64,000 nt of DNA, taken from the NCBI GenBank assembly GCA_001795385.1, contig MGOU01000007.1, forward strand, positions 1 through 64,000, written 5' to 3'. A program made the position numbers and the translations under genes. The notes under the pieces are model-generated. The model made no database searches, was not told where the DNA came from, and saw only the letters and a program-made list of their open reading frames with translations. The stretch is from Clostridiales bacterium GWD2_32_19. Lineage in GTDB: Bacteria; Bacillota; Clostridia; Lachnospirales; UBA12420. Positions 3,383-6,399 of the stretch are shown piece after piece. Numbering within the stretch: position 1 is the stretch's first letter; every line of letters starts with the position of its first letter.

Positions 3383-3439
3383 AAGTTCTCATCCTAATGT
3401 AGGGGAGGAAATAGCTTGCAAAAAAGAGGAGGAACAGTT

Positions 3440-5236
3440 ATGAATAGAACTTTGAAATCACTGCTTGGAATTATACTAGGTCTTATTATAATATTTGCAT
3501 ATTATAATACATTTTATAGTATTGAATATTCAATGCAAGATATGATATACCAAAAGCCAAGTGAAACAACTTATGAAATAGCAATAATAGGTGTAGATGA
3601 GGAAAGTCTGGAAGAGTACGGCAGATGGCCATGGTCTAGAGAAAAGATAACAAATCTAGTAAAAATTATAGAACAAGGTAATCCAGCGGTAATAGGTATA
3701 GACATATTGCTTTCAGAAAAATCAGATGAAAATTTAGACAAAGCATTAGTAGATGAGATAAAAAAGCATGACAATATAGTTTTAGCTAAGATGGGTAAGT
3801 TTAATAATTATACTAAAGCAAATAATATGGAAGCTATAAAAATGGTTGAACCTTTTAAAGAACTAAATGAGAGTGCTATGACTGGGCATATTAATGTGTT
3901 TATTGATAAAGATGGAGTCGTAAGAAAGACACCTCTGTTTTATGACTATAAAGGGCAAAAAGTAGAAAGCTTTCCATACCAAATATACAAGAAATATTGT
4001 GAAAATCAGGGTATAGAGTCAGTAAAACTGGAAAATATCCCTCTTGACAACTGGAACAGAATGAATATATGGTTTAATGAAGGCTCGGAGTTGACTACTA
4101 AAAATGAAAGGAATAATATAAGGTATGAAGAGATATCTATTAATAGGATTTTAAATGGGGAAGTACCACCGGAGTATTTAGAAAACAGAATAGTTCTTAT
4201 AGGACCATATGCTACAGGTATAGATGATTACTACTATACTCCACTTATAAAGGATGAACCTGTTTTTGGAATACAGATAAATGCAAATATAGTACAAAAT
4301 CTCTTGGAGAAAAAATTTAAAACGGAGGCAAATGATTATGTAAATGTATTAATTTTATTGATTCTAGCTATAATAACAAACTTATTATTCAGAAAAATAA
4401 AGCCTATAGTGTCACTTGTAATATTGATATTAATTACAACTGGATACATATTTTTATGTACTGTTTTAAATGGAAACAATTACATTGTGTACATAAGTTA
4501 TCCGATAATATGGATTGTGCTACATTATGTGTTAGCATTACTTATGAGATATGTTGAGAAAATGAAAGAAGTTAAAGATATAACAAGTATGTTCGGAAAG
4601 TATGTATCACCAAAGATAGTAAAAGAATTAATATCAAAGGGTGAAAAGACTTTAAAACTAGGTGGTACAAAGAAATATGTAACATTGTTTTTTGTGGATA
4701 TACGAGGATTTACAAGTATGTCAGAGAAACTTGAACCAGAAATTGTTGTAAGTGTGCTTAATGAATATTTTGAAACTTGCGTGAACTCGATATTTAAGTA
4801 TGATGGGACTCTTGATAAATTTGTAGGAGATGAGATAATGGCTGTATTTAACTCACCTATAGATTTAGCAAATCATGAGCTTGCAGCAGTTAAATCAGCG
4901 ATACACATGAGAGATAGTGGAGTAGAAATGCATGACAGGATAAAAGAAGAATATGGCGTTGATGTACGATTTGGTATAGGTATAAATTCGGGGGAGGCTG
5001 TAATAGGTAACATAGGGACAAGCTTTAAAATGGACTATACTTGTATAGGAGATGCAGTAAACACAGCCGCAAGACTACAAGCAGTAGCAACCCAAGGACA
5101 GATAATAATAAGTAAGGTAGTATATGATAAAATAAAGGATTATGTAGAGGTAACAGATTTGGGTGAAGTAAAAGTAAAAGGTAAAGAAGACGCAATAAAA
5201 ATTTATCAAGTTGATAAACTGGTGGTTAGCGAGTAG
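3440..5236 (+). CDS. CHASE2-domain class III adenylate cyclase
   Basis: A 598-residue membrane receptor cyclase. I chose ATG 3440 because AGAGGAGGA (3425-3433) sits seven bases before it; an in-frame TTG at 3416 has no such support. An N-terminal membrane anchor is followed by an extracellular CHASE2 domain (about residues 30-290, with IIGVDEESLEEYGRWPW). Three membrane helices lie at about 300-375. The cyclase domain (about 415-590) has both metal aspartates, in FFVDIRGFTSM and KFVGDEIMAVF. It also has the transition-state Asn/Arg in GDAVNTAARLQ, the Lys of DKFVGDE and the Asp of DYTCIGD. That Lys/Asp pair is the adenine-selecting combination, so cAMP is the likely product. The context is an MBL/HD-GYP/cyclase signalling run followed 14 bp later by the CoaD-CoaE gene. 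Confidence 0.92.
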   Translation: MNRTLKSLLGIILGLIIIFAYYNTFYSIEYSMQDMIYQKPSETTYEIAIIGVDEESLEEYGRWPWSREKITNLVKIIEQGNPAVIGIDILLSEKSDENLDKALVDEIKKHDNIVLAKMGKFNNYTKANNMEAIKMVEPFKELNESAMTGHINVFIDKDGVVRKTPLFYDYKGQKVESFPYQIYKKYCENQGIESVKLENIPLDNWNRMNIWFNEGSELTTKNERNNIRYEEISINRILNGEVPPEYLENRIVLIGPYATGIDDYYYTPLIKDEPVFGIQINANIVQNLLEKKFKTEANDYVNVLILLILAIITNLLFRKIKPIVSLVILILITTGYIFLCTVLNGNNYIVYISYPIIWIVLHYVLALLMRYVEKMKEVKDITSMFGKYVSPKIVKELISKGEKTLKLGGTKKYVTLFFVDIRGFTSMSEKLEPEIVVSVLNEYFETCVNSIFKYDGTLDKFVGDEIMAVFNSPIDLANHELAAVKSAIHMRDSGVEMHDRIKEEYGVDVRFGIGINSGEAVIGNIGTSFKMDYTCIGDAVNTAARLQAVATQGQIIISKVVYDKIKDYVEVTDLGEVKVKGKEDAIKIYQVDKLVVSE

Positions 5237-5250
5237 AAAGGAATGATTTT

Positions 5251-6399
5251 ATGAATAAAGCTATTTATGCATTTTCAGGTGATCCAATTACATACGGTCA
5301 TATTGACATAATAAAAAGGGCTTCTAAAATATTTGATGAGATTATTGTTGCCATAGGAGTTAATCCAGATAAAAACTACATGTTTACTTTCGAGGAACGA
5401 CTAGATATGGCAGAAAAAAGCCTTTGTTTATTTCAAAATATTAAAGTAGTTGGATTTAAGGGTTTACTAGTTGATTTTGCGTATGAGAGTAATTGCAATG
5501 TAATTATTAGAGGCATAAGAAATTCTGAAGATTTTGAGTATGAAAAAATATTATATGTAGCGAGTGAATCGCAAAAACTAGGTATTGAAACTTGCCCACT
5601 TTTCGCAAAACAAGATATGGTGCACATTAGTTCTAGTACAGTAAAGGCCTTACAAAAGGAGAATGGACTTATACATGAATATGTTCCTATGTATGTTAAA
5701 AAATGTCTGGAATATAAAATGTCAGGTCAATTTATAGTAGGCGTTACTGGAGAAATAGGTTCTGGAAAATCTTATATAAGTGAAATGTTAAAGACAATTG
5801 CAAAAAAACAAGGGATTGAGGTTCACAATATAGAGCTAGACTACATAGGTCATGAGATACTAGAGGAATTAAAAGAAGAAAAATATGAGAAAATAAGGGA
5901 AGAAATAGTAAATGCCTTTGGCAAAGAAGTGCAAAACGATGATGGTACCATAAATAGAAAGGTTTTAGGAAACATAGTTTTCGATGATGCAGGAAAATTG
6001 AATAAACTAAATAGTATTATGTACACACCCATTATGGTTAGGTTAAGAAGAGAATTGTACGATAAACAAGGCATAATACTAATAAATGCAGCACTTATTG
6101 CAGAATCTGGGATGACTTATATATGTAACAATAATATTATATTTATTAATGTAAATAAAGAAACTCAAAAAGATAGATTGAAAGGGCGAGGATATTCAGA
6201 TGACCAAATGTTGCATAGAATAAATTCGCAATATCATTCGTCTGAAAAACAAGTAAAGATAGAAGAAATAATAAAAAAAGATAATTACGGAAAAATATGG
6301 AACATAGATAATTCAAACAATGCAACTGTTAAGGATATAGATGAATTACTACTTAACATAAAAGGCTATTTTGGGATTGGGGTGGAATATCTTACTTGA
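5251..6399 (+). CDS. CoaD-CoaE fusion (PPAT + dephospho-CoA kinase)
   Basis: One 382-residue frame joins two CoA enzymes. Residues 1-158 match bacterial CoaD: AIYAFSGDPITYGHIDII with the TxGH nucleotidyltransferase motif, FTFEERLDMA, RGIRNSEDFEYE and ISSSTVKAL. Residues about 160-382 match CoaE: P-loop GVTGEIGSGKS, then ELDYIGHEIL, DGTINRKVLGNIVF and a C-terminal lid with RLKGRG. Together they would turn 4'-phosphopantetheine into CoA through dephospho-CoA. The usual PGTFDP of CoaD reads AFSGDP here, which keeps the hydroxyl residue but changes its neighbours. The CoaE DAD motif reads ELD. No stop or frameshift separates the domains. ATG 5251 lies 14 bp after the cyclase stop, so co-transcription with the signalling genes is likely. 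Both domains look intact, but activity of each half is inferred. Confidence 0.88.
   Translation: MNKAIYAFSGDPITYGHIDIIKRASKIFDEIIVAIGVNPDKNYMFTFEERLDMAEKSLCLFQNIKVVGFKGLLVDFAYESNCNVIIRGIRNSEDFEYEKILYVASESQKLGIETCPLFAKQDMVHISSSTVKALQKENGLIHEYVPMYVKKCLEYKMSGQFIVGVTGEIGSGKSYISEMLKTIAKKQGIEVHNIELDYIGHEILEELKEEKYEKIREEIVNAFGKEVQNDDGTINRKVLGNIVFDDAGKLNKLNSIMYTPIMVRLRRELYDKQGIILINAALIAESGMTYICNNNIIFINVNKETQKDRLKGRGYSDDQMLHRINSQYHSSEKQVKIEEIIKKDNYGKIWNIDNSNNATVKDIDELLLNIKGYFGIGVEYLT

Follow-up and report, generated by a model that had tools for sequence, protein, structure and literature searches.

A probable single-gene bacterial CoA synthase fusion is the only coaD/coaE found in a clostridial genome and is linked to mobile elements

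The analyzed window is a stretch of 64,000 nucleotides from contig MGOU01000007.1 of Clostridiales bacterium GWD2_32_19, whose draft genome (1.97 Mb, hereafter G000) is 97.6% complete, so that about 2.4% could be absent. At positions 5251-6399 of the forward strand the window carries one open reading frame of 382 codons with an ATG start and no internal stops, in which the last two enzymes of CoA synthesis are joined. The locus comprises the following features:

3416..5236, forward strand: upstream gene encoding an adenylate-cyclase-type membrane protein, separated from the fusion by a 14-nt gap
5251..6399, forward strand: fused coaD-coaE gene, 382 aa, the sole coaD/coaE found in the genome
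5251..5718, forward strand: CoaD (phosphopantetheine adenylyltransferase) domain, residues about 1-156 (TIGR01510, 154 bits; Foldseek match to E. coli CoaD 6b7a)
5269..5301, forward strand: variant ATP-binding loop AFSGDPITYGH, where the canonical loop is PG[ST]FDPxTxGH (7 of 7 fusions versus 0 of 44 standalone CoaDs)
5719..5733, forward strand: CoaD/CoaE junction without a linker (AlphaFold2 model)
5734..6285, forward strand: CoaE (dephospho-CoA kinase) domain with P-loop GEIGSGKS and IELD (TIGR00152, PF01121)

Both halves of the protein score above curated cut-offs, the CoaD half across the full model. NCBIfam searches gave 152-155 bits for TIGR01510 (cut-off, 103.3 bits) over residues 4-156 and model positions 2-154/155, and 98-100 bits for TIGR00152 (cut-off, 65.55 bits) over residues 162-344 (domain span, 162-345), while the Pfam family PF01121 matched the CoaE half with 89.7 bits (cut-off, 27 bits). 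In sequence, the protein comes closest to the solved structures of bacterial CoaDs (T. maritima 1vlh and E. coli) and of the CoaE 2grj. The open reading frame and both searches bear out the initial annotation of a one-frame CoaD-CoaE fusion, including its coordinates, its domain order and the bacterial type of the adenylyltransferase (PPAT) half; the motifs AFSGDPITYGH, RGIR..DFEYE, ISSS, GEIGSGKS and ELD had also been read correctly. In an AlphaFold2 model built from a five-row alignment (pLDDT 83, pTM 0.75), the last CoaD helix (147-158) is predicted to run directly into the first CoaE strand (160-167), and the modelled CoaD domain superimposes on E. coli CoaD 6b7a with a TM score of 0.92 over the target and an rmsd of 1.6 Å (Foldseek). 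The ATG at 5251 is closely preceded by AAAGGA and, at a distance of 14 nt, by the end of the cyclase gene; the two genes are probably co-transcribed.

A whole-genome search found no second CoaD or CoaE in G000. The sole further match to the CoaD model (31 bits, below the cut-off) does not extend beyond the model's N-terminal half; it probably represents another adenylyltransferase such as NadD. The congeners G001 and G002 bear the fusion as their single coaD/coaE match, with 52% and 70% identity to the window protein, respectively, and separate coaD or coaE genes were found beside the fusion neither in these two genomes nor in G119, which belongs to another order. The carriers amount to five genomes (G000, G001, G002, G119, and G837) from two families of the class, and at least two genera, each from a different order, thus have the fusion. 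In the rest of the window's order, represented by at least one genome from each of 24 families, coaD and coaE are separate wherever both were found. Among 391 genomes of the class, two carry the fusion, namely the window's genome and G119, and none besides the window's was detected among 399 genomes of the phylum, a sample that does not contain G119. Within the order of G119, the fusion recurs in G837 from the same genus and in none of the other 144 genomes. A candidate in G902 was rejected as a further fusion, its coaD and coaE being two separate adjacent genes 9 nt apart. A scan of genome contigs with the window protein matched only standalone CoaDs of Shewanella. Judged from these gene inventories, the fusion most likely serves as the CoA synthase of its host in G000, G001, G002, and G119.

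The gene takes several forms among the relatives. The fused frame of G119 and G837 ends at CAA CTT CGG TAA (L039:2440-2625, forward strand, and L117:1355-1530, reverse strand), and the +1 frame continues for about 46-48 further codons that are colinear with the C-terminus of the window protein. The frame offset and 13 nt around the junction are identical between the two genomes; the differences downstream (13/6/18) fall most often on third positions of the +1 frame, compared with 31/16/120 for frame 0 upstream, and of the arginine codons in the samples of both genomes CGG is the least used, strongly so in G119. This arrangement looks like a candidate programmed +1 frameshift that would complete the kinase half, with an old frameshift mutation and a dispensable tail as a standing alternative. 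The CoaD-CoaE protein of G001 has an extra C-terminal region of about 220 residues (L006:2620-3300, forward strand) resembling HD-type phosphohydrolases; it matches PF01966 with 18 bits, below the cut-off, contains the motifs H..N..H, FHD, and DVDLSILG, and has no copy that we could find in G000. In G002 no ATG, GTG, or TTG precedes the ATP loop in frame (L005:1495-1503, forward strand): the position of the window's ATG is occupied by ATA, which overlaps the TAA stop of the cyclase gene and is preceded by GGAGGG, the candidate readings being a non-standard start or an assembly error.

The active-site motifs were compared in seven fusions, 44 standalone CoaDs, and 21 standalone CoaEs. All fusions share the loop A[FL]SGDPIT, whereas standalone CoaDs have [PA]G[ST]FDP. 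In E. coli numbering, position 9 is F or L and position 11 is G in every fusion (7/7), and the corresponding residues of the standalone proteins are G and F without exception (44/44 each), so that the window loop combines swapped G9→F and F11→G with retained S, D, and H. The initial annotation had singled out AFSGDP as unusual; the loop does differ from PGTFDP, but S9 of the window protein still gives the hydroxyl of T/S10, and the oddity lies in the G9→F/F11→G swap. The G[ST]FDP sequence is a hallmark that is invariant in the standalone set used and lies outside the curated definition of TIGR01510; we treat the fusion CoaD as a variant CoaD, since its score and other residues pass. CoaD residues H18, K42, R91, D95, E99, and S127-128 are kept in every row, fused or standalone; Ser10 and Ser129 are kept in all seven fusions, and R88 is once replaced by K. 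In the CoaE half, the P-loop (G172, K173, S174), D197, R236, and E285 are likewise conserved in 7/7 fusions, and the alignment shows that two features of standalone CoaEs have been lost, namely the conserved TH(P/K) His and the C-terminal AD.VI.N motif. ELD turned out not to be anomalous as had been supposed, the first acidic residue being E or D in fusions and variable among standalone CoaEs, with the second D fixed in 28/28 sequences. A Pro-to-Ala change in the dephospho-CoA pocket, remarked on for mammals (PMC2765170), was rejected as a hallmark of bifunctionality, because Ala also occurs in 11 of the 21 standalone CoaEs used. The fusion CoaD is expected to be active with altered packing of the ATP loop, because the loop retains the hydroxyl and the Asp; a change in its activity is possible, since an otherwise invariant loop is affected.

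Beyond chromosomes, a tblastn search of plasmids revealed a full-length, one-piece fusion with 43% identity on the 1.17-Mb plasmid pPL1 of Pseudomonas silesiensis, and an IMG/VR scan with the fusion alignment revealed two more on contigs G823 (297,710 bp) and G824 (181,270 bp). A CoaE-only alignment proved too diverse to serve as a query against viral contigs. The G824 and pPL1 copies are 91% identical over the CoaD half and 80% over the CoaE half. The G824 gene has a G+C content of 0.40 against 0.32 around it, and the pPL1 gene 0.46 against 0.53; close copies in differing surroundings with intermediate gene G+C make up the pattern expected of transfer, which these compositions would suggest here. 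G823 encodes a phage-type DNA polymerase, a DnaB-like helicase, and further replication genes, and G824 encodes phage-type RNA-repair genes. None of the ORFs sampled from these contigs was recognised as a capsid, portal, or terminase gene, so that the viral assignment of both rests mostly on IMG/VR, with the phage-type genes as further support. Phage isolates yielded no fusion, containing either a separate coaD only or, in LR756501, adjacent coaD and coaE. A search of viral contigs with the GDPIT DNA pattern brought up nothing beyond the two known fusions, one adenylyltransferase of weak similarity (L055), and matches by chance.

Some further observations were made on viral sequences. The adenylyltransferase-like ORF at L055:2500-2720 (reverse strand), weakly similar to CoaD, has the loop GLAGDPITLGH. 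The 735-kb genome of the huge phage LR756501 encodes canonical separate coaD and coaE genes that overlap by 4 nt (L047:3947-5010, forward strand). In G823 (IMGVR_UViG_3300035698_029839; L048, L068, L069, L070, L101, L102), about 33 ORFs that are otherwise dissimilar by eye share the C-terminal sequence (N/D)R(F/L)(E/D)ILDL with varying codons; the fused coaDE gene does not carry it. It may act at the protein level as a tag for targeting or clamp binding.

The fusions all fall into a single clade, with support of 100/99 in the tree of the CoaE half, 92/73 in the tree of the CoaD half with the motif columns removed, and 100/100 in a concatenated tree against paired separate coaD and coaE genes. 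Because the trees place all fusions in one clade, the simplest account is a single fusion event followed by spread. In the concatenated tree a weak branch (68/93) has the five chromosomal rows on one of its sides, and a tree holding the three congeners (G000, G001, and G002) together is marginally disfavoured (p-AU 0.079).

The surrounding pathway suggests where the fusion may act. Neither the PPCS domain PF04127 nor a full coaBC was found in G000; the only match to the coaBC model (42 bits, below the cut-off) lies inside a gene tandem that, by resemblance, we take to be dipicolinate synthase A/B. As a separate observation, these dipicolinate-synthase-like genes suggest a spore former. PF04127 is also absent in G001 and across much of the order, and is matched weakly in G002; therefore, the loss of coaBC is not uniform. 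The type III pantothenate kinase CoaX (PF03309) was found in none of the five fusion-bearing genomes. Documented salvage routes start either at pantetheine, with PanK, PPAT, and DPCK as the steps, or at imported 4'-phosphopantetheine, for which PPAT and DPCK suffice (PMC7770189, PMC8721197), and B. subtilis imports cysteinopantetheine (PMC11487621). Because coaBC and CoaX were not found, the fused CoaD-CoaE may be the terminal module of a salvage route in G000, and the organism possibly relies on uptake of pantetheine or phosphopantetheine.

We consider it highly probable that the gene encodes a bifunctional CoA synthase that is the sole source of both steps, belongs to a mobile [FL]SGDP family, and probably serves salvage. 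According to this explanation, the N-terminal CoaD would adenylylate 4'-phosphopantetheine to dephospho-CoA and the C-terminal CoaE would phosphorylate the 3' hydroxyl of dephospho-CoA to yield CoA; the fusion would replace separate coaD and coaE genes in G000, and would probably finish the salvage route in this organism. CoA synthesis is essential, and the fused gene is predicted to be so as well. The initial annotation had left room for a sequencing error that removed a stop and a start between neighbouring genes. Separate adjacent coaD-coaE pairs of the kind this would need do exist in LR756501 and G902, but the same fusion occurs in the two congeners, and eight independent records share the linkerless junction at identities down to 42-54%, which refutes the artefact and leaves its probability negligible. 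A second, diverged copy that has taken on a new role, for example one linked to the neighbouring cyclase, would fit the altered ATP loop, the adjacency of a cyclase gene in both G000 and G002, and the position of the fusion as an extra beside host genes on pPL1 and in phages. This reading, also raised initially, is rejected as very improbable, because the fusion is the only coaD/coaE found in G000, G001, G002, and G119; moreover, the catalytic residues are kept, and the gene order after the cyclase is common to G000 and G002 only, so that a link to cyclic-nucleotide signalling is unsupported, the adjacency not being kept in G001 or G119. We also find it unlikely that only one half is active, with the other persisting as a relic in a structural or regulatory role: the loop swap in CoaD and the missing TH(P/K) His and AD.VI.N motif in CoaE could point to such decay, but no other gene was found for either step and the catalytic residues are retained.

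The direction of spread is a closer matter. The bifunctional synthase belongs to a monophyletic [FL]SGDP family that we infer to have moved horizontally between clostridial chromosomes, large phages, and megaplasmids. An origin in Clostridia with later uptake by phages and plasmids, the opposite of phage-to-host movement, is a serious candidate that comes somewhat short of an even chance; the placement of the chromosomal rows on one side of the 68/93 branch agrees with it and a host clade is not contradicted, whereas the rarity and patchiness of the hosts (1/399 and 2/391) fit acquisition, and G001 is not firmly grouped with its congeners by the AU test. More tentatively, and in our view rather doubtfully, a fusion from a pool of viruses and megaplasmids could have displaced the chromosomal coaD and coaE genes of several lineages of Clostridia, including ones without coaBC, thereby becoming the sole CoA route, with one genus requiring a programmed +1 frameshift for the kinase half.

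The final two steps of CoA synthesis are taken to be carried out by separate enzymes in bacteria and by a fused protein in animals, and some archaea fuse the first of them with an unrelated kinase. Animal CoA synthase (COASY) carries its PPAT and DPCK activities in one chain, in the same order as the corresponding domains of the window protein, and its DPCK domain is homologous to the window CoaE half (2f6r, 52 bits). However, the window PPAT belongs to the bacterial CoaD branch (TIGR01510) and that of COASY to another; the window protein also lacks the N-terminal region of about 200 residues, its PPAT starting at residue 4, and its halves have no linker. These sequence differences indicate that the two fusions are independent. 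Compared with separate bacterial CoaD and CoaE, each half is a full-length member with the same catalytic residues, but the window protein is fused, has [FL]SGDP instead of G[ST]FDP, and lacks the TH(P/K) His. Archaeal PPAT-DPCK fusions (arCOG04076; PMC6650551) are likewise prokaryotic and join the same two steps, whereas their DPCK is GTP-dependent and unrelated to CoaE, and their PPAT differs (PMC6650551). Auxiliary metabolic coaD and coaE genes of phages place the same two steps on viruses (PMC11097641; LR756501), but in LR756501 they are separate with the canonical motif, and PMC11097641 lists them as two genes. The open-access papers searched contained no account of a CoaD-CoaE fusion in bacteria. 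Protein databases contain automatically named bacterial PPAT/DPCK multi-domain entries, and fusions of this kind may, as such, be annotated already; as far as can be told, the single clade, the common motif, the presence as sole copy, and the connection to mobile elements are new.

Overall, we regard the bacterial CoA synthase fusion as real and rare, most simply of single origin, apparently the sole host copy, and linked to mobile elements. The CoaD ATP-loop motif used for PPAT recognition is not fixed. The sole-copy bacterial fusion offers a natural test of what joining PPAT and DPCK does to flux or channelling. A gene for an essential cofactor has apparently moved between cells and mobile elements: the viral-contig and megaplasmid copies suggest that the last part of the CoA pathway is borne by mobile elements in a single gene, and that such a fused gene can substitute for essential genes of the host.
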